From NCBI GenBank assembly GCA_910574455.1, contig CAJSYZ010000001.1, forward strand, positions 4,633,424-4,697,423: a stretch of 64,000 bases of DNA, in the 5' to 3' direction. The DNA is from Trichaptum fuscoviolaceum (lineage: Eukaryota; Basidiomycota; Agaricomycetes; Hymenochaetales; Trichaptaceae). Below the pieces are notes generated by a model, which had not been told where the DNA came from, made no database searches, and saw nothing but the letters and a program-made list of their open reading frames with translations. Of the stretch, positions 18,111-54,303 are shown piece by piece. Within the stretch, counting starts at the first letter, position 1; each line of letters begins with the position of its first letter. A program made the position numbers and the translations under genes.

Positions 18111-18124
18111 ACTCGGATGAGTCA

Positions 18125-19400: not shown

Positions 19401-19492
19401 CGGTGGAGTCAAAAAACGCGTGGAAACAACATGCTATGAAAGGTAGCTATCACATGACTGTATCTCCTTCCACAAAGGGTTAATTACCCATA

Positions 19493-19522
19493 CATCAGGG
19501 AATCTTCTTTTTTGCTTACGGC
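19493..19522 (+). repeat. Left terminal inverted repeat of the 34.8-kb element
   Basis: Thirty bases starting CATCAGGGAA and ending TTGCTTACGGC. The inverted mate is at 54,275-54,303. Beyond it, inward, the ends diverge: AT-richer DNA on the left, a CAGGCAG/GGCGCGCC-rich stretch on the right. Confidence 0.85.
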
Positions 19523-19922
19523 TACTTAACCGGCCTTAAGTCCTCTGAAGCCCTGGGAAGTAAAATTCTACTGATTTACTGATTTCAGGCATGTGGTTTC
19601 ATTATTCAGGAAGGGGCTTACTGAATTCAGTGCCGTCAACTGAAATCAGTGCTCTCAGTGCCTCAGTCTCCAGCATTCAAGCATATCAGAAGAATTTATT
19701 CTGGCAGTTTAATTGCAGTGCTCAAGAGTAAAAGTGTGTAAGACGTTCAAGTAGTTCATTCCATAAGTAATTCAGCATTTAATCATATAAGTAGACTTTT
19801 TCGTCTGTAGGTTTGCAGTACCCAAGCGTGTAAGTGCGTACTAAGAGGTTCCAGTATTGGTTCATTCCACAAGTAATTTAAGACAGATAAGTAGAAATCA
19901 GTGCCTCAGTGTCCCTCAGTAA
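19523..19922. other. Subterminal region of the 34.8-kb element
   Basis: Non-coding. It contains loosely repeated short words such as TTCAGTGC, TCAGTGCCTCAGT (near 19,652 and 19,900) and AAGTA/AAGTAATT (19,745-19,880). Such subterminal repeats are usual for CMC-type elements, where transposase binds them. The function here is inferred only. Confidence 0.5.
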
Positions 19923-20126
19923 CTACACCACGGCATCCTGATCCAGATCGTATTTCGCCACTTCTGCCTGTTCCTCGGCATACTCAGAGAACGAAGGCCA
20001 CTGCAAGTTGATGATAGTAAGTGTTTGAATACAGTGGCGGGATGGTTAAAGCCAAAGCTCACCAGTGATCAACCTGCTCTTAAAAGTCTGCGCCGTCCGT
20101 AGCCGAATCCCATAATGAACCCTCGT

Positions 20127-20944
20127 TGTTACGACCGTCGGGAATTGTAGCGGGAAACAGTTTCGGGAAACTGGAATTCGCGACAAGAACCCGCGTTCGG
20201 GAATCTGGATTCGCGACTGGGAACGAGCGTGGGAATTCAGGCGGGAAACGCGCGGGATTCTATCCAGGCGCGTCGCGGGATTCTCAAGGCCAGCTAGGAC
20301 TCTTCACTGCTTTGAACGTCAAGTAAGCAGATCCCTAAGGAAGCACTCCACAAGTAAGTATTGCGCAACTAACTACACAGGAGAAAAGAGAGAGATCGCA
20401 CCTAAGGAAGCACTCCACAAGAGGTCAAAAGTGGGGTGCTCCTTACGATGCCTACAGCTATTTATCTACTTCGTAAAGACTGTATAGTTAATCTACGCTA
20501 AGTGTCCTTGCGCAATGCGCACCTATCTACTACAAACGATACATGCTACGACCGCACTGCTAGGCATGTCTATCCCGTCTCTCCAGATGGCTACGGCCTG
20601 TCCGTGGACGTCAGCGTCCGGTCCGGGGCCGCGACTAGCCAGACTAGGTATGCCAGACTGTTGCAGGTCGTCACCTTGAGGTACTAACGGATTAATGAGC
20701 GTATGTTGATAAGTGAATGTACGTGTGCCGTGGCGGGTCGTCGTAAATGAGTGTGTGTATGCGTGCATGGTTGCCGGGACGGTGGTGCGGGATAAGTCAC
20801 GTGAGCATGGGATCGTGCGATTCGGGAATGAGGTTTCGCGCGGGGAATCCAATGGCGGGATTCTCCCCGCGGGTTTGTCTGCTCATGTCGGGATCCTTGG
20901 CGGGAAAGTGCGGGAAATGAGAAAAGGAGCCCGGGATCTCGACA
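20127..20944 (-). repeat. 3' LTR of the Gypsy element
   Basis: Starts TGTTACGACC and ends ATCTCGACA on the plus strand. The pol frame reads through the purine tract into this LTR and stops at 20,797-20,799, so about 49 terminal codons of pol are LTR sequence. Small open frames within it, on either strand, occur identically in the other LTR and are not genes. Confidence 0.95.
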
Positions 20945-23900
20945 TTACCCCCCTCCAAAGGCGCAACTCCGGGGCGCCAAGCTTGAATCTTGCTCAGGTC
21001 ACAGAGCTCGATAGCGTTGACTTCTCGAGGGGCGTCCGGGTGTTTTCGATAGAAACTGCGAATTTTAGCCTTTGCATTACCCATATCCTTTGCGGGAATC
21101 CATGTATCTTCCGCGCTCGAATATCCCTTCCATCGTACCAAATATTCAAACCTCCGTCTAAACCGTCTAGCATCCAGAACCTCTTCCACCTCGTATTCCA
21201 GATCTCCTTCTACTTCGACTGGGGGCGGCGGGGGTTGCGTTCGACCGGGAATGTCGTCTTCGTGGTATGGCGAGAGCAGCGATACGTGAAATACGGGATG
21301 AATCTTCAGCGACGCGGGGAGTTCGAGTTCGTAGGTGAGGTCACTTAGCTTTGCCTTCACTTTATACGGCCCTAGTCGTTTCGGTAATAATTTGCGCGCT
21401 CCTGGTCGCCGAACGTTCGTCGCCTCGAGCCATACTTTATCCCCGACTGCGTACTGCGGGGCCTCGTTCCTGGCCTGATCGTAGTGCTGCTTCATGCGCT
21501 CTGCCGCAACCTCCAAAGCCGCTCTTGCCTCTTCCTGTGCCTGCTGAAGCTCCTGTAGTCGTGCGTCCGCGGCGGGGACCGTGGACAGGCCGTCGCTTGG
21601 GGCAATCGTGAATTCGGGATTGTAGCCGTAGACAAGCGCGAACGGGGATTGTCGTGTTGCCGCGTGCGCTTTCGTGTTGTGCGCGAACTCTGCCATCGGG
21701 AGTAATCCGGCCCAGTTTTCTTGTCGTGTATCTATGAAAGCCCGTAAATATTGTTCCAGCTCTTGGTTTACCCTTTCGGTTTGCCCATCCGTCTGCGGGT
21801 GATACGCAGTCGACGTGGTACCCTTGATACCGAGTCGGGAAAAAAGGGCTTTCATGAACTGCGCGACAAACTGTGGCCCTCGGTCGGATATAATCTGGCG
21901 GGGGGTTCCGTGCAGCTTCCAGACGTGTTGCAGGAAGAGTTCTGCAGTTTCCGGTGCATCGACATCAGACGTGGTCGGGATAAAATGCGCTTGCTTGGTG
22001 AGACGGTCGACCACCACGAAAATTGCGTCGTAATCCTCAGATCGGGGGAGCTGGGTGATGAAATCGCACGAAATCGCCTGCCAGGGGCCCTGCGGGATTT
22101 CGTTTGGTTGCAGGAGTCCTACCGGGCGTTGGGATCGGTTCTTCGTGCGTGCGCAGGTATCGCATCCCGAAACGTATCGTTCTACGAAGTTAGACATCCC
22201 GGGCCACCAGTAGTTGCGGCTTACCATCTCAAACGTTTTCCAACGTCCAGGATGTCCGGCGGGGAGACTGTCGTGGTAAGTCTTCACCACATCCCGGCGA
22301 ATGGTCTCGTCTTTCGGGACGTAAACCTTACCCTGGTACAGGATGAGGCCTTCCTCGGTGCTCCAGTCCTCAAGTTCCTTGGTCAGGACTCGAGGCGCCT
22401 TGGACTTGACCAGCTCGATCGCGTCCACCAGTTCGTCTTCATATTGATCTGACTTACGAATGCGTCGTAGGAGGGCCTGATCCCCGTGTACCTGCGTCAT
22501 TCCCCGACGAATTGCCTTTAGTCGAAACATTTCGGGGGTCAAGAGGGTCCGTCCCGTGTTGTCTTCGCCTTCGGGTTGAAGATCGACGCGTCGTGACATG
22601 GCGTCGGGTTTGCCCCCGAGTCGCCCTGGGCGATGGCGAATCGTGAAATCGAAGCGGGTGAGGAATAGACTCCACCGGGCTTGGCGTCGCGTCAGCGTTC
22701 GGGATTCAGAGAAATATAGCAGATTCTTGTGGTCAGACACGATATCGAGTTTATGACTCGCACCTTCGAGATAATGTCGCCACTCGTCAAGAGCTCGAAT
22801 AATCGCGAGTAGCTCCTTGTCATAAATCTCGTAGTTGCGTTCCGCATCGTTGAGGGATTTCGAGAAAAAGGCGACCGGATGTATCAGCCCGTCGTCGCCT
22901 TCCTGGGACAAGACCGCGCCGGTCGCGAAATCAGAGGCGTCGCATTCCACGATGAACTGTCGCGACATGTCTGGCATCATCAGGACGGGGGCGGTCGTGA
23001 ACATGCGCTTGAGATAGTCGAAAGCGAACTGCTGGTTTTCTGTCCAGGCCCAGCGAACGTCCTTCTTCAGCAGCGTCGTGAGCGGTTTGACGATGTGCGA
23101 GAAATCCCGAATGAAGCGTCGATAGAAATTCGCGAACCCGAGGAAGGCTTGAATGTCTTTCACCTTTTTCGGGGTAGGCCAGTCGAGGACCGCCTGTACC
23201 TTGGCGGGATCCATCGCCACCTTTCCCTGCGAAATAATCATCCCGAGATACTCGACGGAAGTCTGTTTGAATTTGCACTTTTCGGGTTTACAGAACAAGT
23301 CGTTTTCGCGTAGTCGCTTAAGGACTTCCCGTACGTGTTCCTCGTGCTGCGATTCATCTTCGGAAAAGATTAGCAAGTCGTCAAGATAGATGATCACGTA
23401 TACTCCAATGAGATCTTTGAAGATATCGTTCATCATATGCTGGAAGGTCGCCGGGGCATTCGTGAGCCCGAATGTCATCACCGTTGGTTCGAAATGTCCT
23501 GCCTGAGTCCGAAATGCGGCCTTCCACTCGTCGCCTTGCTTCAGTCGCACATTGTGGTAGCCCCATCGTAAATCTAGAGTCGTGAAAACCTTCGCCTTTT
23601 GCAGCGCGTCTACGAGTTCCATCGTGAGGGGAAGCGGGTATCGATTCTTGACCGTGATGTCGTTCAGTCGTCGGTAATCGACTACCATGCGCAAGGTTCC
23701 ATCCTTTTTCTTGATAAAGAAGACGGGAGCAGCTGCAGGGGATTTCGAAGGTCGTATGTACCCCTTGCGCAGGTTTTCGTCAACGAATTCGCGAAGGGCA
23801 TCGCGTTCGGCTGGGGCCAAGGGATAGATTTTGCTGTACGGGGGAACCTTCCCGGGTTCTAAATCTATGGCGTGGTCATACGGCTTGCGCAGTGGAAGCC

Positions 23901-24984
23901 TTTCGGATTCAACTTTCGAGAAAACGTCGGCAAACTCACGGAATTCGGGGGGAACTAGTTCTTCGAAGGTTTTCTCGCCTTCCTTCACCGCAGACTTCTC
24001 AGCGATGGCCTGGGAGTGGGTGTACGAGGCGGCAATTTTGTACGCGAAATGGTCGTCCGTCGTGACGAAGTAGGATTCGGCGTCGTGGTACTGGTCCCAA
24101 TATTTGTCTGAGTACCGAAATCCCGGTGGGACAGCTTCCCATTCGGCCTGGGTCCTGTCGGGCCCCCAGGGGGTCTCGACTTCTTCTGCTATGGCGAGGC
24201 GGGGAAGCGGGACCAGGCGTTGCTGGTTGTCACACTGGGGCGGGCAGCGGTTGAGATCGACCACATCGTTGGTCCAGTCAATGGTTGGGTTATGGTGCCG
24301 CAACCAGTCGATCCCCATGATAATATCGTCGTCGCCAATATCCGCGACGGCCATGGTCAACTGTTCTAAGTGTCCCTTCATCTCGACGTTGAGGACTACT
24401 TCCTTGGTGATGCGTCCAATCGCGTTTGGGGAATTGTCCGCGTTGCGCAAAAGTATCGGGATTACCAAGTCCCGGGTCTGGAGTCCGTGTCGCGAAACGT
24501 AGCGGGAATTTATAAAAGTTCCCGACGCACCGCTGTCTAACATTACTGTGGCTAAGGCATCCGTTTTTCCGTCGCTAACCTGTACCGGGAACTTCAAATG
24601 TCGTCGAAGACGACGGTCTATTGTAGAGATGGTTAAATACAAGGGACCATTATTAAGAGAGTTCTTCGGCCACAAGGGCGGTTGGGTCGTATAGGGCGCG
24701 ACTGAGCAATACGACCCTACTGAAAATCCGCTGGGGGCGGGGCTTCGGGATTGTGAACGTTCTTGGCGGCGGGCGTTATGGCGGCGAATGCGTTCTGTAG
24801 CACGGACTGCTGCACATTCTGGACGTACTGTTCCGCCATACGTTTGAGCGTTTCTTCGAACGACTGGAGCGCGGGGGGCGAGGGGCTCGACGGGGACGTG
24901 GATTTCGTAGCTTTTAGGTTTCGGGTTGGCGGTCGCGTTGGGCAATCGCTCACTAAATGGTCTTTCTCTCCGCAGTAGTAGCAT
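20797..24984 (-). CDS. pol: Gypsy Pol polyprotein: protease, RT, RNase H, integrase, chromodomain
   Basis: A 1,395-codon frame, intact throughout. Retropepsin has LDSGASG with the catalytic Asp near residue 150. Reverse transcriptase spans roughly 400-560 with YLDD at 533-536. RNase H begins near 677 (VECDASDFATGAV). The integrase has an HHCC-type zinc finger (YHDSLPAGH...CDTCA, 903-945) and catalytic Asp 974, Asp 1034 and Glu 1070 with D-35-E spacing. A chromodomain follows at about 1,262-1,315 (YLVRWKGYSSAEDTWIP), which in related elements directs insertion to particular chromatin. The frame overlaps gag by 268 nt and is in the -1 phase relative to it, so expression probably needs a -1 frameshift within 24,717-24,984. 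The first residues of this open frame may therefore never be made. It appears fully functional. Confidence 0.95.
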   Translation of the reverse strand: MLLLRRERPFSERLPNATANPKPKSYEIHVPVEPLAPRAPVVRRNAQTYGGTVRPECAAVRATERIRRHNARRQERSQSRSPAPSGFSVGSYCSVAPYTTQPPLWPKNSLNNGPLYLTISTIDRRLRRHLKFPVQVSDGKTDALATVMLDSGASGTFINSRYVSRHGLQTRDLVIPILLRNADNSPNAIGRITKEVVLNVEMKGHLEQLTMAVADIGDDDIIMGIDWLRHHNPTIDWTNDVVDLNRCPPQCDNQQRLVPLPRLAIAEEVETPWGPDRTQAEWEAVPPGFRYSDKYWDQYHDAESYFVTTDDHFAYKIAASYTHSQAIAEKSAVKEGEKTFEELVPPEFREFADVFSKVESERLPLRKPYDHAIDLEPGKVPPYSKIYPLAPAERDALREFVDENLRKGYIRPSKSPAAAPVFFIKKKDGTLRMVVDYRRLNDITVKNRYPLPLTMELVDALQKAKVFTTLDLRWGYHNVRLKQGDEWKAAFRTQAGHFEPTVMTFGLTNAPATFQHMMNDIFKDLIGVYVIIYLDDLLIFSEDESQHEEHVREVLKRLRENDLFCKPEKCKFKQTSVEYLGMIISQGKVAMDPAKVQAVLDWPTPKKVKDIQAFLGFANFYRRFIRDFSHIVKPLTTLLKKDVRWAWTENQQFAFDYLKRMFTTAPVLMMPDMSRQFIVECDASDFATGAVLSQEGDDGLIHPVAFFSKSLNDAERNYEIYDKELLAIIRALDEWRHYLEGASHKLDIVSDHKNLLYFSESRTLTRRQARWSLFLTRFDFTIRHRPGRLGGKPDAMSRRVDLQPEGEDNTGRTLLTPEMFRLKAIRRGMTQVHGDQALLRRIRKSDQYEDELVDAIELVKSKAPRVLTKELEDWSTEEGLILYQGKVYVPKDETIRRDVVKTYHDSLPAGHPGRWKTFEMVSRNYWWPGMSNFVERYVSGCDTCARTKNRSQRPVGLLQPNEIPQGPWQAISCDFITQLPRSEDYDAIFVVVDRLTKQAHFIPTTSDVDAPETAELFLQHVWKLHGTPRQIISDRGPQFVAQFMKALFSRLGIKGTTSTAYHPQTDGQTERVNQELEQYLRAFIDTRQENWAGLLPMAEFAHNTKAHAATRQSPFALVYGYNPEFTIAPSDGLSTVPAADARLQELQQAQEEARAALEVAAERMKQHYDQARNEAPQYAVGDKVWLEATNVRRPGARKLLPKRLGPYKVKAKLSDLTYELELPASLKIHPVFHVSLLSPYHEDDIPGRTQPPPPPVEVEGDLEYEVEEVLDARRFRRRFEYLVRWKGYSSAEDTWIPAKDMGNAKAKIRSFYRKHPDAPREVNAIELCDLSKIQAWRPGVAPLEGGNVEIPGSFSHFPHFPAKDPDMSRQTRGENPAIGFPARNLIPESHDPMLT
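20945..20960 (-). promoter_or_regulatory. Polypurine tract
   Basis: On the minus strand CTTTGGAGGGGGGTAA directly precedes the 3' LTR. This is the usual RNase H-resistant primer for plus-strand DNA synthesis. It also encodes part of the pol reading frame (Leu-Glu-Gly-Gly). Confidence 0.8.
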
Positions 24985-25925
24985 AGTCCCTTACTCCTGC
25001 GCTCCCGGCGCACCCTGTCAATCTCCATTGCGTTGGGATCCTTCGTCGAGCTTGCGCCCGCAGTCGGGATCGTACGCGGAGCTGAACTAGTGGTGCCGGG
25101 ATTGCTTCGGGGCGTAGCCGCTGGCTTCGATACTGGTCCATAGGCGTGTGCGAGCCTTAGCTTCTCGTCCGTCTCGGAAACCCAGTTGACGTAGGCATCG
25201 AATTTCATATCCTTCGCCTCTGTGCTGGCGATGTGCTGGCGAACCTGGTCTTTGAGTCCCTTCCGGAACATGTCGAGGTAGATGACATCCGTCGTCGCGT
25301 CCTTGGGCCACCCGGTGAGGGCTTGGAGGGCACGGAATTGCGACGCAAACTCGGCGACCGTTCCTGTCTGGCGTAGGCGCATCAGCTTGTCGGCTGCGGC
25401 TTTGTCTGCATCGATTTCTCCGTACGAGGCGCGAAGGGCGGCGAACAGGGCCTCCAGGCTGGCGGCTGCTGGCGGTGTCGGGATGTCCTGGAGTCGATCT
25501 AGAATGGGTCGTGCCCAGTCTTGCGCCGGTCCCCGCAGGAGCATCAGGGCGAATGCGACCTTGCGGGTTTCGTCCAGCCCCGGGTGTTGTCCGAACAGGT
25601 AGAGCTTAATCTGGTGAATCCAGTTTTCCAGCTTGGCTCGTTCGCCTTCGAAGGTGTCGGGAAGCTTCATCTTGAGCCCTGCTCCACCCCCAGACGGGGA
25701 GGCGGGCTGGCTCGCGATTTGGGCTTCTAACGCCTGGTTGGCGTGCTTGAGCTGGGCGACCGTGTTCTGAACCTGATTGTGTTCGTTGACTAACTTGGAG
25801 TAGCGTTTTTCGAGGGTGTCGAGGCGATCAAGGATGGGCTGGAGTTTGTCGTCCTCCATCGAGGAGCTCGGGGACGGGAAAGCGAAGGTATCTGCGAGTC
25901 CTCCCCATTCCTGGTGGGATGACAT
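24717..25925 (-). CDS. gag: Gypsy Gag protein
   Basis: 402 codons from a true ATG at 25,925 to TAG at 24,717. An N-terminal coiled coil (LDTLEKRYSKLVNEHNQVQN) precedes the capsid-like core (LPDTFEGERAKLENWIHQIK, then VAFALMLLRGPAQDW and EFASQFRAL). A CCHC zinc knuckle, CYYCGEKDHLVSDC, sits at about residue 315-330 for RNA binding. The Pro/Ser-rich tail ends in the overlap with pol. No stops or frame breaks, so the protein should be functional. Confidence 0.95.
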   Translation of the reverse strand: MSSHQEWGGLADTFAFPSPSSSMEDDKLQPILDRLDTLEKRYSKLVNEHNQVQNTVAQLKHANQALEAQIASQPASPSGGGAGLKMKLPDTFEGERAKLENWIHQIKLYLFGQHPGLDETRKVAFALMLLRGPAQDWARPILDRLQDIPTPPAAASLEALFAALRASYGEIDADKAAADKLMRLRQTGTVAEFASQFRALQALTGWPKDATTDVIYLDMFRKGLKDQVRQHIASTEAKDMKFDAYVNWVSETDEKLRLAHAYGPVSKPAATPRSNPGTTSSAPRTIPTAGASSTKDPNAMEIDRVRRERRSKGLCYYCGEKDHLVSDCPTRPPTRNLKATKSTSPSSPSPPALQSFEETLKRMAEQYVQNVQQSVLQNAFAAITPAAKNVHNPEAPPPADFQ

Positions 25926-26014
25926 CGCTGGTCGGCGGTACGGGTGCGGGGGTAGAAGTAAAGAGCGTGAGGGTGTCGAGTCCGAGCGGCGGTGAGCCAG
26001 GACTTTTGACCTAA

Positions 26015-26832
26015 TGTTACGACCGTCGGGAATTGTAGCGGGAAACAGTTTCGGGAAACTGGAATTCGCGACAAGAACCCGCGTTCGGGAATCTGGATTC
26101 GCGACTGGGAACGAGCGTGGGAATTCAGGCGGGAAACGCGCGGGATTCTATCCAGGCGCGTCGCGGGATTCTCAAGGCCAGCTAGGACTCTTCACTGCTT
26201 TGAACGTCAAGTAAGCAGATCCCTAAGGAAGCACTCCACAAGTAAGTATTGCGCAACTAACTACACAGGAGAAAAGAGAGAGATCGCACCTAAGGAAGCA
26301 CTCCACAAGAGGTCAAAAGTGGGGTGCTCCTTACGATGCCTACAGCTATTTATCTACTTCGTAAAGACTGTATAGTTAATCTACGCTAAGTGTCCTTGCG
26401 CAATGCGCACCTATCTACTACAAACGATACATGCTACGACCGCACTGCTAGGCATGTCTATCCCGTCTCTCCAGATGGCTACGGCCTGTCCGTGGACGTC
26501 AGCGTCCGGTCCGGGGCCGCGACTAGCCAGACTAGGTATGCCAGACTGTTGCAGGTCGTCACCTTGAGGTACTAACGGATTAATGAGCGTATGTTGATAA
26601 GTGAATGTACGTGTGCCGTGGCGGGTCGTCGTAAATGAGTGTGTGTATGCGTGCATGGTTGCCGGGACGGTGGTGCGGGATAAGTCACGTGAGCATGGGA
26701 TCGTGCGATTCGGGAATGAGGTTTCGCGCGGGGAATCCAATGGCGGGATTCTCCCCGCGGGTTTGTCTGCTCATGTCGGGATCCTTGGCGGGAAAGTGCG
26801 GGAAATGAGAAAAGGAGCCCGGGATCTCGACA
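26015..26832 (-). repeat. 5' LTR of the Gypsy element
   Basis: Same 818-bp sequence as the left copy. Transcription would start in it and run leftward. The accessory-gene frame from 27,426 reads by chance through its edge, giving a false C-terminus that begins at the insertion point. Confidence 0.95.
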
Positions 26833-29800
26833 CTCGTCGTCCTCGCGATCGCCTTTGCCTTCCCCGCCCTTTCTGTCTGCGTCATTCGCCTCGCCCTCAG
26901 AGCCTCCACTGAATCCATCACCCACGCTAAGAACCTCGTCCGCATCCTTGTTCTTATCCCGATCCTGATCCTTGTCCTCTTCATCGTCATTGTCCTCATC
27001 CTGATCCTTGTCCTCGTCTCCCTCGCCAGACACACCCTCGTCCTCCATGTCGTCCTCCCTCTCCTTGAAATCCTCAACTTCTTCGCCGTCATTATCCTTG
27101 TCTTCGTTTCTCTCCTTGCACTTACCACTTCTATTAGCGCCCTCACCATGTGTATACTCGCCGCTCGCATCCGCGTCTCCAACGTCGATATATAGGGAGA
27201 AATCCCTGCCAGTGACACCCGATCCAACAAGTTCGGCGTTCCTTCCCGCATTGACATCTTCAACGGAGTTGTAAGCTTCTATGCGGGACCGAACCTTCTC
27301 CCAGTTTGATTCAGTGAAAAACGAGGAATTTGACAATAAGTTGACATAGTCGTCCGTATGAGGCTGCCACAGAGCACTAGTGAAGTACCACTCAGCACCA
27401 CCAAGCTCTTCTTTGATATTTTGCAACCGGGCTACCTGCTTATCGATTGCAACTTTGACCTGTCCATGAGAGATTCAGTGAATAAAGCCACTGCAAGTAC
27501 TGAAGTAGATAGATACCGCTGTTGCCGCAAGGGCGAGGGCACCTATAGGCTTTCCTATTGTGTTCTTGTCCAATACTTTATGCCGACCCAGGGCCAAGAC
27601 AATGTGCACGGACAACACTGAGACTACGAGGTCAGAGCAGAACAATCCTTGCTTCTGTGTACATTCATAGTCAATGCACGGACTCGAAGGGTGACATTGA
27701 GTGAAATCTCACACACCCTTTCCATACTATGCCAGCGTTCCCAGAGGAATGGTTCAGCTTTCTTCTTGTCGACCATCGTCTGCAACATCTTCACAATTTC
27801 TTCGGTCTCCACTGACTTAGAACGCTCGTTGCCGACGAAACTCGAAATTGACTGCTCGGCTTTCTCAAACAATTTCTTCCGCCAACTATCAGAGCATCTC
27901 TGGGCTGCCTACAGAATAGATCATACCTGATTCAGTATGGCCGATGTAAGACAAATAGGGATGACTCAACTAAAGAACAGATGTCGGCCAATTGTGTGTC
28001 GTAACTAAGTTCGACAGAATCAAATACTTTCCCCCACAGTGTTCCGATGGACTTATTGTCTGGGTTTTGCCATGGAGTTGTGGACTTTCCGACTGCACGA
28101 TACAGCGAAGGCAGAAGAATATGAGTCCAGCCAGCCTGAGTTCCGGGAGGAAGACACTGATTCGTTGCCCTTTTTTTGCCGAGAGCGCGGGATCCCTCCC
28201 TTCCTTTACTATTTCTATCCTTATCCTCAAGTCCTACAGATGTCTGCATGTAAGCAAGTTAGTGGATGCATGTCACAAACATGAATGGATCAACGCACAG
28301 AGCTAGTAGTCCGAGAGACTTTGCGATGACCAAGATGAGCCTTGGTTGCGAGCACTTCGGGTTTGGGACTGAAGGATACTGTCGTCATCGCAGGTGATTG
28401 TGCTTGTGGTGTTGGCGACGCCTCACGACCACTTGCCTGTCAGAAGAACCGAGAATAAGTACCGAATCAATTGCAGCAATTAGCTCACACTTGCAATATG
28501 ATGTGCATGAACCGCCAGTGACCTCTTCAGATTGCGAACAGAGGTAGTAGATTTCATCTGTAGCAATTAGAGGAGTTCTTACCAAGGGAAGCTCGAAGAG
28601 AATTAAATACCAGTATATCAGCCTGAGAATGACTGTCTTGCGGTTCACTCTCCTTAGCAGTATTTAAGTCCTTGTCGCTTGATCAGAAAACAATATGAAA
28701 TGGAAATTAGATGTGATTGACACTAACTGTTGAGGCAGCCTGGGATGGAGGCTTCTTCATATACACGTTCATGCTAGCCTGTTTTAGATAGTAAGGAAGT
28801 GCTTTTGAAATTGGGTGGAAGAGTACGAATTACCACATCGATATGTGAGTTTGAGTCAGGCGGCGACTTCCTCTTCTTATTATTCACAATCATGCTGTCC
28901 TACACATAAACAAGGTTTAGTGGACATCCAGATACTTGCCAAAGAAAGGGGCACCAAAAGTAATCCTAATGAGTGTCGATGCCTACACATACCTGTATCT
29001 GTAGATGCGACGCTGGAGACTGCCCCCTATGACCCTCAACAGAAATACCGTCCTGACGGGAAAATAGATGAGTATACGGGTGAGGATTAAAAGCAGAATA
29101 AACTTACCAATACATCGAGTTGGGAGTTGACGATGTTCGTCATGCTCGCGCCCTATTCAGAGTACAATTTGGTAAGTAATGAAGGAAGTATATTCGACGC
29201 CGGAGGCCACAACAAAGTATGGCACCAAGTCCATGCTTTGTTGTGTAGAACTCACCTGAATGCCCGATTGTCCCTTGATATTCTTCTTCTCCAGTGCATA
29301 AAGAAAGAAAAATAAGTAGCTTGAACGAAACAGGAGATTATGAAGCCGCTTACCAGTGTTATATGAGCCTGCAACTCGGAGAGAGTGTCGCGGGATAGCT
29401 TCCTTTTCTTCAATTTGCTGCTAGCTCCATCCTGTTACGATACAGAAATGATGTTAGATAGCCATCGTTGTGCATGAGACTCCACCGACGTATAGTTATT
29501 GTGAATCAAACGATTTCTTTGAAGTATAAGCGGCACTTACATTGGCTTGGGTCGGTATTGTCAGTCTACTCACGTCCTAATTAAACGCACAATCAAAATA
29601 TTAAGATTTCCTCTGCCAGTCTAATTAATGCTCCATCCAACTCACAATATCAGTGTCGGAGTCAACGAGATGTGCCGTCTGTCGTTCGCTAGCTGAGCTA
29701 TTCTTTACACCTTGGAAACTCGTGAGGGTTACTGTCACTCCTTCATCCTCCCAAGGACTAAAGTTCGCATCGTCTTGCGCCGAGACGGGGAGCCTAGTTT

Positions 29801-31144: not shown

Positions 31145-31733
31145 TCCTGTGCAGTAGTAATAGGGGCACACTGGCAGGTGCTATGAATATCGATGGTGAG
31201 TCGACTCAGAGTCAAAGGTGCAAGTTAAAGTTCAAGTTGAAGATGAGGGCGCCTATTCAAGGAAAATTTACGCCCACTGCCAGCCTGCCACTGGCACTCA
31301 GGCTGGCAGTGACTCGGAGTGCCAGTGAGCGAGCCTGAGTCACGGCGGTACCTGGCACTGGCGCTGGCACTGGCACTCAGGCTCACTCAGACTGGCACTG
31401 GCAGGCTTCAACTTGAAGTTGCACTCCGACTCGGATTCCGGCGACCGAGACGGCAAGCCTGACACTGGAACTGGCAGTCAGTGAGTCAAGGCACTCAGCC
31501 GCAGCCTTCTACCGTACTACTAGCAAATCTGCCAGGTAGACTACTACTAGCTCCTACTACGCGAGTCCACCTTGGCGAACTCGATTCGCTGCCAGTGCTA
31601 CTTCAAGTTCAAGTTGACAGCTTCAGCCTGAGGCTGGGGATTCATGTTCTAACTTAGTAAGTCAAAAGTCGAAGTAAGTCAAAAGTCGACTTCAAGTTGC
31701 TAATAGGTACTACTATAGGTTGCATCCAAGTCG
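31145..31733. promoter_or_regulatory. Divergent intergenic region, motif-rich
   Basis: A 590-bp gap between two head-to-head genes, therefore presumably a shared promoter region. It is densely packed with CACTGGCA/TGCCAGTG, CAGGCTGAGTG-like, ACTTGAAGTTCAAGTTG and GACTCGGAGTG words, and ends with repeated AAGTCAAAAGTCGAAGTAAGTCAAAAGTCGACTT phrases (31,650-31,700). No TATA box stands out. Promoter function is inferred from gene orientation only. Confidence 0.45.
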
Positions 31734-42472: not shown

Positions 42473-42593
42473 TAACGCATCAATCGTCGACCAGTTCAAA
42501 TTTTTCCTGGTCCGATTTTTTATAGTCTTCGAATTTCACCGAAGACTATTCTTCCTCCTCGATCGCCGGCTAAGCCAGCTGGAAAGGAACCCG

Positions 42594-44098: not shown

Positions 44099-46825
44099 AT
44101 GACATCCACCGCCCCCCAACCTCCAGGCTTGCCAGGGCCACATCCAAGGAATACTACTAGTAGAGCAAACAATGACCGACGCGGATGTGAGTTCTGCGTT
44201 CTCCATCTCTGTCACAGGCAATACTGATTGCTGACTACCCCAATAGTACAAGACGAAGATGTACTGGGAGATACAACGCCACCTTTCAGTGCGCAATGTG
44301 CGTCCTATGCCTTCCTTCACTGACACTGGCAATACTGATTACTGCATCACCCATCTCTAGTTTTGCAGGCCCTAGGGGTTAACGTTGAAGAAGCTGCAGG
44401 AGGACATTCTTCATCAATGCCGACTGAAAGTGAGTCCTTCCTTCCCTTCACTGACACTGGCGAAACTGATTGGTACTTAACCCGTTACCAGTTTCACAGG
44501 CCCCAGAAACTGCGATTACTGATGACGAACCTGTGCAAGGACAAGGTTCGGGGGAACGATTTATCATTGCCGGTGGCCCTGCCCGTGGGTCATTCACCGT
44601 CACGAGTTCCTTAGACTCGGAGGGGGGAAGCCTCCTACTATCAATTCCTCTCGCATCCCTTCAACCAGACTTGAAGTCACAGCAAACCAAGTCCGTCCTG
44701 TCTTCAGCGGTTGTGAATACGATTCTCGCGCAAAATCCTAACGCTTATCTCCCACGACGAACACATGTGTCAGAAGAGGAGCAGAAAGGTTACTACCTTG
44801 GCTTCCCTGGCAAACCGCGCCTGCTCGGGCGAACCGGTCCCAATTGGACGGCGACCAAAAAACGTAAATATGTGGGCATTGTTGGAAATCACCGGATTGC
44901 CAATGTATGGCCGCAACTGCTCAAGAAGATCATGAAGTATCTCGATTCCGAGAATTTGCGGTGGAACAGTCTGGAAGCCAACCGTGTTGCCTACGGAGAT
45001 AGTCGGGTGTGCCCTGTTTTTGTTTTGATCGGAGTCAACGACCCGTCACTTCGCACTGAAGATGCGTGCCGCATCGCGGAACGCGTTAAAGAGTTCCTCT
45101 TTGAAATGCGCATCTTCGACGTTGAGGTCGAGCTCAGGGAGCGAAAAATCATTAGCGCCTCAGGCCAGGGCAAAGCTTCTGTCAGTGTTCCACCTGTTGT
45201 GCGCACTGGCACCGGCGACTCAAATACTCTGGCTAGCGGTCATGCTGAGACTGGCGTTGGGCAATACCGCTCCCGTTCACACTGGCTTCAGTTTTCATCC
45301 GGAACTCACCAACCTTCCCAGACGTTCCGATCGTCGCACTGCTCCGACGAACAATGGAGGTGCGGGGGATGTCACTGAGCATAATGACGGTAACAGCACC
45401 AGGCCCCTTGTCGCTAGCGCTCACGGGGCAGAACCCTACGCCTACCCAACAGAGATACTGTTCACCGCACCTGCGGGAGCCGATAATTATTTCCGCCTGT
45501 GGGATCGCATGATGGATTTCCCAAGCAGGCCAGTGGCAGCTGCCAACAAGCCAATCAGTCGTATGACACCGTCTTTCTCCATGGTCACAGGAACTTGCCT
45601 TGGCAATCTGGAGGGTGGCTTCTCAACGGGGTCGCTCTTTATCCTACAAAAGCTCGATAACACGACGTTCAAGGTGTTCATCCTCGGTACTCGCCATGGC
45701 AACGTTCCTTCGAAATTCGGAGACTACGATCCATACGCAGATACAACAAATAAGCCGCGCGACCCAAACGACAATTGCCCAATTTATCTCTTCTCTCGCG
45801 AGGCTCTAGCCGCCCATGTGCCAATGATTGGCGCGCTTCACGATGAGTTAGAAGCGGCAGCGTTTACTCACTGGCAGTCACTGGCACCTGATCTTCCGCC
45901 GTCTGCTGAACAACAAGCTTTCGCGGATATCGTAAACAAGTGTCAATTCATTGAGCAATCTTGGCTTGATAAGACGTCATCGCCACATTTGTGGATTAAT
46001 AATCGTATTGGGAAAGTGGCCAATGCTCCCCCTCGAAGAATGGGTAACTTGACTATCTCCGAGACACCCTACCTTACGGATTGGTGCTTGATCGAGGTGG
46101 ACGACCAATGCCTCCCCAACGAATTTGAATTTTCCTCTACTGATGGTGAAGGTCTCAGTTGGAACAATTTCTATAACGTCATCGACATTAATAGGCTTCC
46201 TCCATCGTCGGCAGCTCAGTCTGTACCACGAGAAGCACTCTTGTCTAGGCTTGGCTGGAAAGGGAGGGACTTCTTTAGTCCAATCCGAATTGCGGGATAT
46301 GTTCCGGAAGAAAATATATTCCCCCGGGTCCAGGAGCACCAATTGGACGCAGATTATGATTATGGATGGACTTTCATCGACAATCTCGTCGCTGTGGGGT
46401 TTAAGCGAACTGTGTACAAATGGGGCTGGAAAACTGGCCATACGTTAGGCGAGGTCAACAACGTTGCTGCCGTTCTCAGATCTATGCAGGTTTCCCCTGG
46501 GCACGTTGATCAGACTACGCATATTGCTTTACAGATCCCACCGGGTTCGGTTGGTTTAGGGAATATCGGGCATAGGAACAATGCTATGTTCGCAGAACCG
46601 GGGGATTCGGGTGCCATAATCATTGATCAGCACAGACGTGCAGTTGGTACCATTTTAGCTTGCGGACTCATCGAAGCGAGGGATAGGGATAATCAGAGTG
46701 TACTCGACGGTTATACTTATGGTGTCGCTCTATGGCAAACGGTGAAAGAGCTTGAGACCTCTTTTTCTCTAGCTGAAAGTGAATTCAAGCTAGGCATGAA
46801 TGCACTTCCGGACAATGAAGTATAA
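44099..46825 (+). CDS. N-domain plus trypsin-like serine protease, copy 1 (one-base frameshift)
   Basis: Exons 44,099-44,186, 44,247-44,297, 44,361-44,429 and from 44,492, with GT/AG introns of about 60 bp. The N-terminal domain (LGFPGKPRLLGRTGPNW, YVGIVGNHRIANVWPQLL, VCPVFVLIGVNDPSLRTEDA, FDVEVELRERKI) resembles the first half of a family of uncharacterised basidiomycete proteins that join such a domain to a chymotrypsin-fold protease. In the C-terminal half I see the likely catalytic triad: His in GTRHGN (45,694-45,696), Asp in DWCLIEVD (46,079-46,081) and Ser in EPGDSGAII (46,607-46,609), followed by VGTILAC. A linker coded by CTGGCACCGG-type motif DNA joins the halves. At 45,259-45,261 this copy has GGG where copy 2 has GG, which shifts the frame between the two domains. 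Substrate unknown; no signal peptide, so probably intracellular. Confidence 0.8.
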
Positions 46826-47290
46826 CGATGCTCCTCTCAACTCCTATAGTAGTAATTAGTGGAGCTCTTTTCTTATTCTCATGCGATGGTGTTGCGTATT
46901 CGTACGTTTGTTTCCTGCTCTGTGTTTGATGGCCTTTGGCGTGCGCTTTATGTAGTAGTACATGTATGACTTGAGGAAATGGGAATGATATTGCAAGTGT
47001 GGTTTCCATCCGTGAACTTGAAGTATACTGCTAGCTAGTAGCCAGTGATAACTTGTACTTGTACTTGTTCTAGTGACATGATTCGCGACTTGGACTCGGA
47101 CAGTTGGAGGATCGTCTTCCCTCGGCGGATGGGCCCTGATTTGAAGTTTATGGGGAATTATTGCTTATTACTTCAAGATGAAGCCACTTGAACTTCAGGC
47201 TGTATAATCATGGTCTTGAATCATTGTATGCGTAACAACGTTGGAAGTTAAACTTGAAGGGGACACGGAAAGTTCAACTTGAAGTTGCGG
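44162..47290 (+). repeat. Direct duplication containing the protease gene, unit 1
   Basis: Begins within exon 1 (AGAGCAAACAATGACC) and runs about 0.45 kb past the stop codon to GACACGGAAAGTTCAA. Unit 2 is at about 48,516-51,640. Differences seen are a handful of substitutions and single-base indels, so the duplication is young. The sequence before AGAGCAAAC differs completely, giving each copy its own promoter region and first-exon codons. Confidence 0.85.
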
Positions 47291-48464
47291 AGTCATACGA
47301 CTCGGATGCATTGCCAGTAGCTTGAAAGAGATTGAATGTGACTCGATTATTATCCTCAAACAGTCAACCTGAGGTCAGACGCACATTGACCCAGTCGACC
47401 GCTGACCTGACCCGTAGGTCAAGGGCTTGCTACTGCTACTACTAGTATGCACTCAGGCTGGCGGCATTCAAGTTGCAGTGCCAGCACCCCGGCCGGCGGC
47501 CCGCCGCCGCCGCCACTGGCACTCACTGGCAGGCTGGCAGTGCCAGCCTGAGTGACAACTTCAACTTCAACTTCTTGAACTTGAAGTCACTGGCACGGTG
47601 TCGCGTCTCCGAGTCTTAACTTCTTGAATCATCTTCGAACTTAAAGTGGTTGCGCCCGCTTATAATCCGCTGCTACTTGAGATTTCCTGCTGCCAATTGC
47701 TTGCTTGCGTCGGACAAGAATGTTACCCGAATTATTGCGAAGCCAATGCCGTGCCACCGGAAAAGAGGTCGCGCCCGCTATGAAAAATCTGTGTAACGTG
47801 CAGCGGAGGCCCTCCTCGTCAGAGGCTGCGCCTTCCTCAGTGGTGTCACCCCCTTGGTAGCCCAATTCACTCTGGAGCAAGGACCTTTTCGGCGAGCTGT
47901 CAGACTTAGGGTTTTTGGTCAGAACAGAGTCGGCCCAGGTCGACCTGTAACCCGACCTATGTTGACCTTGACCTATGGGTCAGAGTGGGTCAAGGCTGAA
48001 GTCAGGTATCTTAGGCAGATCTCCGACCGGGTCACTGGCAGGTCGGGATCGAACCAAAATAGTCTCGTAACCAGCTGAAGATTGCGATACTATGCGATAC
48101 TACGCAAACCGGCGCTCTCTGCGGAAAGGACATAAAAAAACGCTAGTACTAACCTCAGGCTGCCACTGGCAGTGCTCATGAGGCTAGAACCAAAATTAGC
48201 CTTGACTTCAGGTCAGGTCAGGCCAGCCCATTACGGACACCGTGCATTCCGTCTCCTCGGAGATCACTGGCAGATACGACTTCAACCTCAGGCAGTGCAG
48301 CCTGAGTGACTCGGGCCAGTGCCAGTGCCAGTGGCGTGTGAATGATGGAAACTGGAGAAGCCTGAGGGTACTTATAACTTGAAGAGACAGCCCCGTGCCC
48401 TCTATCTCTTTTGACCACTGCCAAGATCATCTACCCTCTACCTTCCACACACATTATCTCTACT
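46826..48464. repeat. Spacer between protease copies: shared 3' flank then motif DNA
   Basis: 46,826-47,290 belongs to the duplication. 47,300-47,640 is packed with CACTCAGGCTGG, TGGCACTCACTGGCAGGCTGG and TTCAACTTCAACTTCTTGAACTTGAAG. 47,930-48,060 holds a repeated GGTCGACCTG/GACCTATG/GGGTCA theme, and 48,290-48,340 has GCCAGTGCCAGTGCCAGTGG. A minus-strand frame at 47,641-47,880 has no family resemblance. Confidence 0.55.
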
Positions 48465-51178
48465 ATGGCACTTGCCTTACGTTCTCCGGGCTTGCCACGT
48501 CAATACTATGGCAATAGAGCAAACAATGACCGACGCGGATGTGAGTTCTGCGTTCTCCATCTCTGTCACAGGCAATACTGATTGCTGACTACCCCAATAG
48601 TACAAGACGAAGATGTACTGGGAGATACAACGCCACCTTTCAGTGCGCAATGTGCGTCCTATGCCTTCCTTCACTGACACTGGCAATACTGATTACTGCA
48701 TCACCCATCTCTAGTTTTGCAGGCCCTAGGGGTTAACGTTGAAGAAGCTGCAGGAGGACATTCTTCATCAATGCCGACTGAAAGTGAGTCCTTCCTTCCC
48801 TTCACTGACACTGGCGAAACTGATTGGTACTTAACCCGTTACCAGTTTCACAGGCCCCAGAAACTGCGATTACTGATGACGAACCTGTGCAAGGACAAGG
48901 TTCGGGGGAACGATTTATCATTGCCGGTGGCCCTGCCCGTGGGTCATTCACCGTCACGAGTTCCTTAGACTCGGAGGGGGGAAGCCTCCTACTATCAATT
49001 CCTCTCGCATCCCTTCAACCAGACTTGAAGTCACAGCAAACCAAGTCCGTCCTGTCTTCAGCGGTTGTGAATACGATTCTCGCGCAAAATCCTAACGCTT
49101 ATCTCCCACGACGAACACATGTGTCAGAAGAGGAGCAGAAAGGTTACTACCTTGGCTTCCCTGGCAAACCGCGCCTGCTCGGGCGAACCGGTCCCAATTG
49201 GACGGCGACCAAAAAACGTAAATATGTGGGCATTGTTGGAAATCACCGGATTGCCAATGTATGGCCGCAACTGCTCAAGAAGATCATGAAGTATCTCGAT
49301 TCCGAGAATTTGCGGTGGAACAGTCTGGAAGCCAACCGTGTTGCCTACGGAGATAGTCGGGTGTGCCCTGTTTTTGTTTTGATCGGAGTCAACGACCCGT
49401 CACTTCGCACTGAAGATGCGTGCCGCATCGCGGAACGCGTTAAAGAGTTCCTCTTTGAAATGCGCATCTTCGACGTTGAGGTCGAGCTCAGGGAGCGAAA
49501 AATCATTAGCGCCTCAGGCCAGGGCAAAGCTTCTGTCAGTGTTCCACCTGTTGTGCGCACTGGCACCGGCGACTCAAATACTCTGGCTAGCGGTCATGCT
49601 GAGACTGGCGTTGGCAATACCGCTCCCGTTCACACTGGCTTCAGTTTTCATCCGGAACTCACCAACCTTCCCAGACGTTCCGATCGTCGCACTGCTCCGA
49701 CGAACAATGGAGGTGCGGGGGATGTCACTGAGCATAATGACGGTAACAGCACCAGGCCCCTTGTCGCTAGCGCTCACGGGGCAGAACCCTACGCCTACCC
49801 AACAGAGATACTGTTCACCGCACCTGCGGGAGCCGATAATTATTTCCGCCTGTGGGATCGCATGATGGATTTCCCAAGCAGGCCAGTGGCAGCTGCCAAC
49901 AAGCCAATCAGTCGTATGACACCGTCTTTCTCCATGGTCACAGGAACTTGCCTTGGCAATCTGGAGGGTGGCTTCTCAACGGGATCGCTCTTTATCCTAC
50001 AAAAGCTCGATAACACGACGTTCAAGGTGTTCATCCTCGGTACTCGCCATGGCAACGTTCCTTCGAAATTCGGAGACTACGATCCATACGCAGATACAAC
50101 AAATAAGCCGCGCGACCCAAACGACAATTGCCCAATTTATCTCTTCTCTCGCGAGGCTCTAGCCGCCCATGTGCCAATGATTGGCGCGCTTCACGATGAG
50201 TTAGAAGCGGCAGCGTTTACTCACTGGCAGTCACTGGCACCTGATCTTCCGCCGTCTGCTGAACAACAAGCTTTCGCGGATATCGTAAACAAGTGTCAAT
50301 TCATTGAGCAATCTTGGCTTGATAAGACGTCATCGCCACATTTGTGGATTAATAATCGTATTGGGAAAGTGGCCAATGCTCCCCCTCGAAGAATGGGTAA
50401 CTTGACTATCTCCGAGACACCCTACCTTACGGATTGGTGCTTGATCGAGGTGGACGACCAATGCCTCCCCAACGAATTTGAATTTTCCTCTACTGATGGT
50501 GAAGGTCTCAGTTGGAACAATTTCTATAACGTCATCGACATTAATAGGCTTCCTCCATCGTCGGCAGCTCAGTCTGTACCACGAGAAGCACTCTTGTCTA
50601 GGCTTGGCTGGAAAGGGAGGGACTTCTTTAGTCCAATCCGAATTGCGGGATATGTTCCGGAAGAAAATATATTCCCCCGGGTCCAGGAGCACCAATTGGA
50701 CGCAGATTATGATTATGGATGGACTTTCATCGACAATCTCGTCGCTGTGGGGTTTAAGCGAACTGTGTACAAATGGGGCTGGAAAACTGGCCATACGTTA
50801 GGCGAGGTCAACAACGTTGCTGCCGTTCTCAGATCTATGCAGGTTTCCCCTGGGCACATTGAGCAGACTACGCATATTGCTTTACAGACCCACCGGGTTC
50901 GGTTGGTTTAGGGAATATCGGGCATAGGAACAATGCTATGTTCGCAGAACCGGGGGATTCGGGTGCCATAATCATTGATCAGCACAAGACGTGCAGTTGG
51001 TACCATTTCAGCTTGCGGACTCATCGAAGCGAGGGATAGGGATAATCAGAGTGTACTCGACGGTTATACTTATGGTGTCGCTCTATGGCAAACGGTGAAA
51101 GATCTTGAGACCTCTTTTTCTCTAGCTGAAAGTGAATTCAAGCTAGGCATGAATGCACTTCCGGACAATGAAGTATAA
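48465..51178 (+). CDS. N-domain plus trypsin-like serine protease, copy 2 (frameshifted at the catalytic Ser)
   Basis: Exons 48,465-48,540, 48,601-48,651, 48,715-48,783 and from 48,846. Here the N-domain, linker and protease His (50,047-50,049) and Asp (50,432-50,434) stay in one frame. A missing T at about 50,888 then shifts the frame and reaches a stop at 50,909-50,911, just before the GDSG motif (Ser codon 50,959-50,961). An extra A at about 50,985 would restore the original frame, so a single region of roughly 100 bp is out of phase. As read, the product lacks the catalytic serine. The first exon (MALALRSPGLP...) differs from copy 1 (MTSTAPQPPGLP...) yet keeps PGLP and then becomes identical at RANNDRRG. 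Confidence 0.8.
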
Positions 51179-51640
51179 CGATGCTCCTCTCAACTCCTAT
51201 AGTAGTAATTAGTGGAGCTCTTTTCTTATTCTCATGCGATGGTGTTGCGTATTCGTACGTTTGTTTCCTGCTCTGTGTTTGATGGCCTTTGGCGTGCGCT
51301 TTATGTGGTAGTACATGTATGACTTGAGGAAATGGGAATGATATTGCAAGTGTGGTTTCCATCCGTGAACTTGAAGTATACTGCTAGCTAGTAGCCAGTG
51401 ATAACTTGAACTTGTACTTGTTCTAGTGACATGATTCGCGACTTGGACTCGGACAGTTGGAGGATCGTCTTCCCTCGGCGGATGGGCCCTGATTTGAAGT
51501 TTATGGGGAATTATTGCTTATTACTTCAAGATGAAGCCACTTGAACTTCAGGCTGTATAATCATGGTCTTGAATCATTGTATGCGTAACAACGTTGGAAG
51601 TTAAACTTGAAGGGGACACGGAAAGTTCAAGTTGCGGAGT
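48516..51640 (+). repeat. Direct duplication containing the protease gene, unit 2
   Basis: Second unit of the 3.1-kb duplication, offset by about 4,354 bases from unit 1. Its right edge loses similarity within TTCAAGTTGCGG, a motif word, which suggests that recombination used the motif DNA. Confidence 0.85.
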
Positions 51641-52840
51641 CATACGACTCAGCCTCCAAGTCGGATCATGATGCATTGCCATCGTTCAAGTTGAAGCTCA
51701 GGCTGCCACTGCCAGTGGCAGTGGACTCTGACCCTCCTCAGGCTCCGGTACCGAACTACCACCATGTTCGAGTAATACTGCTATAGTAGTGGGTTTATCA
51801 TAAGATACATTTCTGCAAATACTGTGAGATATATATATTGTAGACGATGCACGAAGAGGCAGCATGAGATGGTTTACGGCATAAAGGAAATAGGGATAGA
51901 TATGTACGAGGTCTGTACAACTTGAAGGATGGGGAACGGCGAAGAAAGAACTTGAAGGACCTCCTGAAGACTCGGAGAAACATGAAATAGAGTGGATAGA
52001 AAAGGTGAGTAAATATGAATGCAATCCAAGGAACCACAACTCATATGTACCATCATGATGATAGGCTTCGTACTACATAAGTACTATTTCAGTGCACGCG
52101 ACATCATCTCTGCTGGTCCTGGCACTGACAAACGTCAGCCTGAGCAGCTTCGTTTTCGAACTTGTTGAAGCTACAGCCTGCCAGTGACTACTTAATTTGT
52201 CACACGTTACCCCTCATGAAGGACAGAAGGGTGTTAAAGCACTTTACCATCACATTTGAGGTCTCAAGAACTGCATAGTGATAGAAGTATGGATATCATA
52301 TAAGTTTTTGAGATAATATCGAGAAAATGAGGCAGGAAAAAGTGAACAAGAGCATAGTAGATTTTAGCTCAGCCTGCTGCCACTGCACTGGCAGTGGCAG
52401 CCTTGGTGCCACTGGCAGTGCCAGTGAGCGCACAGCCAAAATCATAGGAAGGTATCCTGTGACTGCCAGTGTCACTTCAAGTTGAGTCACCGCTTTTTAC
52501 ACCCACCTCAGGCTGTATTGTTGAACTTGTACTTCCTCCACCGTTTTCCTCGAGGAAGCCCAAGAAACCTACGGCGACGTGGGCGAACTACACAACCTCG
52601 CTATCGCTCGGAATTACAGGCCCAGACGAGGAACGAAATTACCTGAGCTCGAACGTTGAAAGACTCAGTGTTTAGTAGGCGATTGGAAAGTTGTCGCACC
52701 ACCCCCCTCCGCGGTTCCCCGGTCACTCAAAAGAAGGCGTGCTTTAAGGCGGACAGCCGCAGACTCGGACCCAAGAGGCGAAGATAGAAAGTGTGGTGGA
52801 CGAGGAGGAGTGCTAGCCTGAGTGGGCTTGAAACAGTTTG
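51641..52840. repeat. Motif-rich region, no confident gene
   Basis: CTGCCACTGCCAGTGGCAGTGG (51,703-51,724) and CACTGCACTGGCAGTGGCAG...CCACTGGCAGTGCCAGTGAGCG (52,381-52,430) are typical of the element. A plus-strand frame ending at 52,675 (PPPFSSRKPKKPTATWANYT) might be a short exon, but I cannot place a start or splice sites. Confidence 0.45.
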
Positions 52841-52844
52841 AATG

Positions 52845-53205: not shown

Positions 53206-53327
53206 AACTTTACTTGATTTCGTACTAAAGCGGATTTATTCTCTTCCATCAGAATCAGAGCGCTGCGCAGTGTGACTCGGACTCGCAGGCGGTGTGCGGT
53301 GAGCGCTCTTTCGAATAATCCAGAAGA

Positions 53328-53612
53328 ATGGTTCAAACAGCTTCAAGTTATAAAAGGAGGACAAAATATCTCTTTGCTAAATATCCTATGCTCGCGCGAT
53401 CATTAACTGTCATGCTACTCAACATTATAACCTTTATCCTGCGCTTCATAGCAGCATTTATGTCTAATTGCGGAGTCCGAGTCGGAGGAAGGCGCGAGTT
53501 GGACGAAGAGGACGCGATTGACAAAGGTGATTCAAGCCGTTTACTATCTCAGTACAGATTGAGAGCTGACCCTTTGTTTCCTACAGTATACGATAGACTC
53601 GGAGAATTCTGA
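53328..53612 (+). CDS. Small hypothetical protein with one hydrophobic segment
   Basis: ATG at 53,328 opens a 94-codon frame. A basic start (YKRRTKYLFAKYPM) is followed by SLTVMLLNIITFILRFIAAF, which is long enough for a membrane helix, then RRELDEEDAIDKG. A possible intron (GTGATT...CTACAG, 53,527-53,586) would alter the C-terminus. No family known. It is the last candidate gene before the right end of the 34.8-kb element. Confidence 0.35.
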   Translation: MVQTASSYKRRTKYLFAKYPMLARSLTVMLLNIITFILRFIAAFMSNCGVRVGGRRELDEEDAIDKGDSSRLLSQYRLRADPLFPTVYDRLGEF

Positions 53613-54274
53613 CGCTACTAGTGGCAGCGTCGGTTGTTATGAGAGGTGTGAGGTTCGTTCAAAAAATGCTAGGGTATGTATAACTTCCTGCCTCAGCACT
53701 GTTTATTCACTTACAAGTAGTCTACCATCTTCCAGTCTCTCTCTATGATTCAGGGCTTGACTTTTCAAAATTTCCACAACAACTTAAATCGACACAGGCA
53801 TGACTCAGGCTAGTACTACTCTAGTACTAGTAGTAGTAGTAGCGGTGCTCCTTCAAGTGCAAATTGTTTTCTCGCTTCCACCAGAACAAACATTTTACTT
53901 TACTATGAAAGATTAGAAATATCATATTGCTGGCATGTGTTTATCAGATATAATATGTATTCAAGTTGGTAAGTGCAATGATACACAGCATCAAAGTTGA
54001 GTGATGACATCCAATTTGGAGAACTTCCGTTTCGAAACTGATGCACTTATGTTGCACTTACCATTGCACTTGAACTGCCCACTGGCATGCCGGTGCTTAA
54101 ACCTCACTTAATCCTGGCTTGCCGCCTGATGTACAATTCCCCTCCTTTTGCACTGATTTTATCCTGAAACGCCGTGTTTTAAGGCCATCAGGCAGCCAGA
54201 CAACCCTTCAGGCAGGCGTGGCAGCGCTTCGACCCATTTAAGAAAGCTTCAGGGCGCGCCAGGACGCGCCAGTC
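53613..54274. other. Right subterminal region of the 34.8-kb element
   Basis: Non-coding. The last TACTACTCTAGTACTAGTAGTAG motif is at about 53,812-53,840. Closer to the end there are CAGGCAGCCAG/CAGGCAGGCG words and GGGCGCGCCAGGACGCGCCAG (54,253-54,273), perhaps transposase-binding subterminal repeats. Confidence 0.45.
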
Positions 54275-54303
54275 GCCGTAAGCAAAAGGAAGTTTCCCTG
54301 ATG
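54275..54303 (-). repeat. Right terminal inverted repeat of the 34.8-kb element
   Basis: GCCGTAAGCAAAAGG...TTCCCTGATG, the inverted mate of the left end. It is followed by the duplicated TA and the resumed target repeat. Confidence 0.85.

Follow-up and report, generated by a model that had tools for sequence, protein, structure and literature searches.

The stretch of DNA analyzed here, 64,000 nucleotides of a Trichaptum fuscoviolaceum contig (the window), contains a long unit with inverted ends that encloses a transposase gene and several further genes. It raises the question of whether these further genes are passengers or belong to the machinery of a transposon. A sequence-only reading of the window had described a 34.8-kb transposon with a cargo of proteases and coiled-coil proteins. 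Our analysis indicates that the element is very probably a giant PlavakaB-type DNA transposon that moves by cut-and-paste, probably autonomously, and that much of what resembled cargo probably belongs to the element.

Boundaries and target site of the element

The window copy spans positions 19493..54303 on the + strand, a length of 34,811 bp. It begins with a terminal inverted repeat of 30 bp (19493..19522, + strand; CATCAGGGAATCTTCTTTTTTGCTTACGGC) and ends with one of 29 bp (54275..54303, − strand; CATCAGGGAAACTTCCTTTTGCTTACGGC when read inward from 54303 to 54275); comparison of the two ends, at 19493 and 54303, gave two mismatches and one gap, as first described. The earlier report of a TA duplicated outside both ends was likewise borne out, at 19491..19492 and 54304..54305, as was that of an empty target site within the window. 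An uninterrupted repeat at approximately 18124-18297 aligns with the sequence on either side of the element, up to 19492 on the left and from 54304 on the right, with homology that covers about 97 bp on the right and is longer on the left, and a more diverged match to the outer flanks lies at 10955-11129. Direct repeats with a spacing of approximately 1.27-1.69 kb occur at 15584-19492, and the element is inserted in one such unit.

Three palindromes of the form CTGAWWTCAG lie within 150 bp of the left end, compared with one in 17,360 bp of the element interior, and none was found in the last 634 bp at the right end; they are candidate binding sites at the left end only. No repeated 7-mer near the ends reached six occurrences when both strands were counted, and comparison of the window with Rfam gave no match. 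Outside the element, the window holds a near-perfect inverted repeat at 60769-63504 (two 1,337-bp arms with 99% complementarity, separated by 62 bp) and several inverted repeats at 58913-59599 (among them 91 bp at 93% and 33 bp at 91%) that are perhaps small non-autonomous elements.

Copies and insertion signature across the genome

We searched the window's own assembly, which comprises 59.09 Mb in 12 chromosome-scale contigs (C1-C12). Among the best 40 candidates for each end, the left ends included at least 36 full-length matches at 99-100% identity, one partial match, and three at 88-89%, and the right ends at least 39 at 99-100% and one at 90%. Whether any second copy carries both ends, the point on which the sequence-only reading depended, is answered by end pairs at at least 36 places. 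These pairs were formed with the nearest correctly oriented end and are 15.2-81.0 kb apart (median 30.6 kb), the longest (up to 81 kb) resting on the nearest end only, and none of the 36 overlap. The paired elements sum to at least 1.256 Mb, which corresponds to 2.1% of the genome. Ends without a partner were one on the left (C10:56313) and three on the right (C4:1609999, C1:5148558, and C10:472820). The 36 pairs are unevenly distributed, with seven on C2, six on C8, and six on C1. C6 and C12 contain none of them, yet relatives of genes B and D from other families are present there.

A matching 2-bp duplication was found in all 12 pairs for which both flanks were read, comprising TA (two), CG (two), CA (four), TG (one), TC (one), and TT (two), and a third base matched in none of them. 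Insertion specific to TA was ruled out by the other dinucleotides at 10 of the 12 sites. The varying duplications therefore indicate independent insertions, and the flank sequences, which differ from one another at the 12 sites, point to transposition rather than segmental duplication at these sites. The end pattern CATCAGGGAAN{2,16}GCTTACGGC had 260 exact matches in the genome compared to 0 for a reversed control; together with the 36 pairs and the 12 duplications, this places the pattern of the element beyond chance.

The usual unit and its rearrangement in the window

To establish the structure of the unit, we set the window copy against seven others. Six of them measure 23.5-24.4 kb and are colinear with the window copy from end to end apart from inserts, their long pieces being 98.6-99.8% identical to it; the copy at C1:4529191 holds an additional insert of approximately 0.7 kb. 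The seventh (C9:2470860) is 15.2 kb long, is without most of the interior, and contains retroelement sequence. The usual unit is approximately 23.5 kb; the extra length of the window copy comes from a nested Ty3/gypsy element and a duplication. Thus, the coordinates first given for the 34.8-kb element hold, but its size is inflated relative to the usual unit.

The nested Ty3/gypsy LTR retrotransposon (20127..26832, − strand) is not part of the canonical element and is missing at the corresponding place in all seven other copies. It matched reverse transcriptase, integrase, chromo, and gag domains and is flanked by a 5-bp duplication, CTCGT. Its two LTRs (20127-20944 and 26015-26832, 818 bp each) are identical, with 0/818 mismatches, and the retrotransposon is therefore young. 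The duplication (44161..51650, + strand) consists of units at 44161-47303 and 48515-51650 that are 99.5% alike, and the approximately 1.2 kb between them is missing from copies with a single gene G.

Between window positions 28501 and 41900, 164 of the 81,463 bases compared with other copies differ (0.2%), 123 of them by transitions. In the segments tested, none of the six full copies was free of frame-shifting gaps, at least one gene being affected in each; these gaps may reflect decay, assembly error, or an artefact of the window frame. Small gaps relative to the six other full copies also occur in exon 1 of gene D and in gene E of the window. An array of 57 GGAAAG-type 6-bp units at 42053-42392 is open in several frames on both strands, and its length differs between element copies.

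Gene content and the Plavaka transposase

A simple home-made spliced-gene predictor yielded gene models A-G, in keeping with the earlier statement that several genes besides a Plavaka transposase lie inside the element. Gene A (26954..27924, − strand), a predicted acidic protein, is a weak model from the predictor only, and the one piece of it that was scanned had no Pfam match. The model of gene B (28774..31144, − strand) specifies a charged, K/E/R-rich protein with relatives of 75-86% identity in other families. Gene C (31719..35703, + strand) contains several exons and encodes the transposase, and gene D (36973..38837, − strand) is convergent with it. Gene E (40194..41984, + strand) is predicted to encode a coiled-coil-looking protein, and gene F (42033..43487, + strand) starts inside the 6-bp array. 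Gene G, modeled as a protein with a PGDSGA motif, is present twice on the + strand, at 44172..46825 and 48508..51178; the last part of the second copy is out of frame in the long open frame.

The earlier recognition of a Plavaka-like transposase was confirmed by a match of C to the Plavaka domain PF18759 (E 5.4e-15; 55.9 bits against a cut-off of 26.3). The protein has 895 homologues, of which 120 were listed at 37-47% identity, the named ones being from mushroom-forming fungi. Its conserved blocks surround a first D residue and the E residue; a pattern that joined C(2)C to the second D had no match in the window transposase or in any of the 120 homologues. The reading frames of C are open in the window copy in the exons checked, and the exon near 33229-33466 is longer than in the home-made model. 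Across the 18 gene sequences scanned against Pfam, nothing except Plavaka matched above the cut-off, and the eight sequences scanned against NCBIfam gave no match. No domain is known for the predicted products of B, D, and F. Structure prediction for D gave no usable model (mean pLDDT 38.0). In a search of 5.8 billion proteins, run for D and G, D had one relative (66% identity) among the approximately 8,000 candidates sharing most words, a set that may miss distant relatives.

Conservation of B, D, and F between families

All three companions of the transposase have relatives outside the window family. D has a second set of matches in the genome, mostly at approximately 69% identity, B has sets at approximately 85% and 77%, and F has sets at approximately 35% and weaker. 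At C3:2204459, which represents the second family, a transposase adjoins D and is convergent with it, as in the window; compared with C, its raw pieces are 56-81% identical and three exons 77-99%. We took 63 D positions outside the window family (42-72% identity) and recorded the genes beside them. B lies on the expected side and strand at 47 of these positions, 35 times at a distance of 6.07-6.50 kb, and F does so at 58, 46 times at 5.05-5.87 kb; the corresponding distances from D in the window are 6.4 kb for B and 5.5 kb for F. Both genes are present at 43 of the 63 positions, and four wrong-orientation controls for B or F beside D gave counts of 0, 0, 0, and 1. The order, orientation, and spacing of C with its companions B, D, and F are thus found again in another family within this genome. 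On this ground we rejected host cargo as an account of B, D, and F, whose conservation is known from families of one genome.

Comparisons between families gave dN/dS ratios of 0.39 (0.21-0.73) and 0.18 (0.10-0.28) for B, with bootstrap intervals in brackets, 0.41 (0.29-0.59) for D, and 0.32 (0.15-0.57) for F, the last at a dS of approximately 2 that is near saturation. For three exons of C compared with the second family, the ratios were 0.01, 0.19, and 0.24, with all intervals below 1. The retention of order, orientation, and spacing, combined with purifying selection, makes B, D, and F look like core transposon genes.

Compared with a third family (L064), one exon of C has no amino-acid change at a dS of 0.54, another has a dN/dS of 1.98 (0.60-5.23) at a dS of 0.04, and the third is not comparable. 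Neighboring transposase exons at window positions 32974-33466 hence differ in age relative to L064 (dS 0.54, then 0.04), which suggests exchange between families. The transposase exon at 34112-34867 is 96.0-96.4% identical to the window in two of the six full copies and 99.7-100% identical in the other four, another sign of mosaic copies. Overall, selection appears to maintain B, C, D, and F as a core, and there are signs that the families have exchanged sequence.

Family-specific genes E and G

All 36 long matches of E lie inside paired elements, in 33 of the 36, with all 84 candidates scored. For G, where the best 64 of 178 candidates were scored, 62 of the 67 matches lie inside paired elements and five near three orphan right ends. 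On the same 64 candidates, approximately two G genes are present in 10 of the 36 elements, approximately one in 22, and none was found in four, these zeros being uncertain at that number of candidates. The occurrence of two G genes in about 10 elements suggests that the two-G form itself spread or arose more than once. Neither gene had a match in the genome outside the window family (all 84 candidates for E, the best 64 of 178 for G), and there was no sign of a host copy of either in the window's genome. Compared with one diverged, stop-bearing copy (C10:465264), G has a dN/dS of 0.70 (0.58-0.86) and is therefore under weak constraint. The protein search found two relatives of G, at 98% and 80%, among its approximately 8,000 candidates sharing most words.

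The G protein contains the motifs TRHG and PGDSGA, which we take to be protease motifs. Searches of Pfam, NCBIfam, and PDB sequences each returned 0 matches for G, and its structure model was unusable (mean pLDDT 27.5). The earlier mention of proteases thus drew support, in the case of G, from the motifs and from none of these other approaches, and the identity of G as a trypsin-like serine protease is not established. The wider proposal of a protease and coiled-coil cargo was not supported in that form: B, D, and F, with their synteny and purifying selection, look like core genes, and the matches of E and G, among the candidates scored, were confined to elements of the window family or to the vicinity of its orphan ends, with no sign of a host copy.

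Related large elements in the genome

A further clade includes at least 10 Plavaka loci on C1-C4 that have B 1.9-2.4 kb upstream on the opposite strand, among the B matches listed. Weak F-like matches lie approximately 9 kb downstream of Plavaka at C1:5052766, C9:2004204, and C11:338695. At 36 of 40 Plavaka positions on C1-C4 (39 loci), a correctly oriented end is present 7-37 kb downstream, 23 times at 9.9-16.2 kb, compared to one for a same-strand control. Judged from this distance between Plavaka and end, the sister families appear to be large too, and the end motif with its 260 matches is common to them. A tentative reading, to which we give a little under an even chance, is that a clan of giant Plavaka transposons in this one genome moves with a conserved multi-protein machine of C plus B, D, and F, to which individual families add genes such as E and G. 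If so, the movement of more than 20 kb by a CACTA-type enzyme may depend on the companions B, D, and F.

Proposed mechanism and alternative explanations

A unit of approximately 23.5 kb, with CATCAGGG...CCCTGATG as its inverted ends and 2-bp duplications of varying sequence beside them, occurs at about 36 or more places in this genome. In the transposon that we propose, C would cut and join at the element ends, and B, D, and F would assist it, whether through DNA binding close to the ends, by bringing far-apart ends together, or by counteracting silencing. This helper role is drawn by analogy with En/Spm, which is a two-protein system. E and G may be additions of the window family that work for the element and not for the host. 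We infer autonomy and helper roles from the sequence. Weighing against the proposal are the frame-shifting gaps in the six full copies, the dN/dS of 1.98 for one exon of C at a very low dS, the lack of a strongly repeated 7-mer near the ends, the absence of the left-end palindrome from the right end, and the single relative of D in the protein search.

The repeated unit might have spread by segmental duplication, or might consist of two different elements whose outer halves survive. The uneven spread of the copies, with none on C6 or C12, would suit such an origin, as would the reliance of the longest pairs on the nearest end. We nevertheless consider it extremely improbable: it is contradicted at the 12 sites read, of 36, where differing flanks each have their own duplicated dinucleotide, and six copies of 23.5-24.4 kb are colinear along their whole length. 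It is unlikely that the element is a large non-autonomous one that shares its ends with a sister family and is mobilized in trans by that family's transposase. Such an account would accommodate the shared end motif and the frame-shifting gaps in individual copies, but the window transposase has open frames in the exons checked, and purifying selection acts on the transposase that belongs to the window family. Trans-mobilization of some copies, e.g., the short C9:2470860, is likely.

It is also quite unlikely that a small Plavaka element swallowed B, D, E, F, and G from the host as true cargo, in the manner of Starships. That account could draw on the weak constraint on G, its duplication in about 10 of the 36 elements, and the lack of detected relatives of E and G in sister families. 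However, B, D, and F keep their arrangement with the transposase in another family and are under selection, and neither E (84 of 84 candidates) nor G (64 of 178) matched the genome beyond the window family. A giant, probably autonomous PlavakaB-type transposon therefore remains our preferred reading.

Comparison with known systems

Plavaka was reportedly named in a paper of 2014. Its elements are common in mushrooms and have been little studied beyond the transposase. The window family adds a recently amplified, giant form in which four core genes are conserved and further genes are specific to the family. With it, one can test how an enzyme of the CACTA type transports more than 20 kb, what roles its companions play, and whether the extra genes are cargo or machinery. 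The titles and abstract openings, mostly non-subscription, that we consulted on Plavaka, large CACTA elements, giant cargo transposons of Basidiomycota, and large transposons with captured genes did not describe this gene set.

In the mushroom Marasmius oreades, KDZ or Plavaka elements make up approximately half of the DNA elements, and autonomous Plavaka are defined by the same Pfam domain as here; the sections of that report drawn on here describe no giant multi-gene unit (PMC8290104). Starships, at least as outlined in part of a study of Tremella fuciformis (PMC13066641), are likewise giant fungal mobile elements with further genes. They differ in combining a tyrosine-recombinase captain with variable cargo, in contrast to the Plavaka transposase and largely fixed gene set of the window element, and no Pfam match to such a captain was found in the element gene pieces scanned. 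Large size by itself has been reported before: enlarged En/Spm (CACTA) families of 16-20 kb with 4-5 ORFs occur in the red alga Chondrus crispus, according to the relevant portion of a review (PMC6431247), with a transposase of a related class in another lineage.

The closest likeness is to PlavakaB, characterized in the excerpted description by CATCA..TGATG termini, 2- or 3-bp duplications, and a Plavaka transposase, with an extra gene for a TET/JBP dioxygenase in some members (Kojima, 2025; PMC12730594). Our element has PF18759, CATCA..TGATG termini, and 2-bp duplications in 12/12 pairs, so that transposase, termini, and duplication length fit an assignment to PlavakaB; the gene pieces scanned had no match to a TET/JBP domain. 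At approximately 23.5 kb, it differs from that description in having at least six genes, among them three unnamed companions conserved between families.
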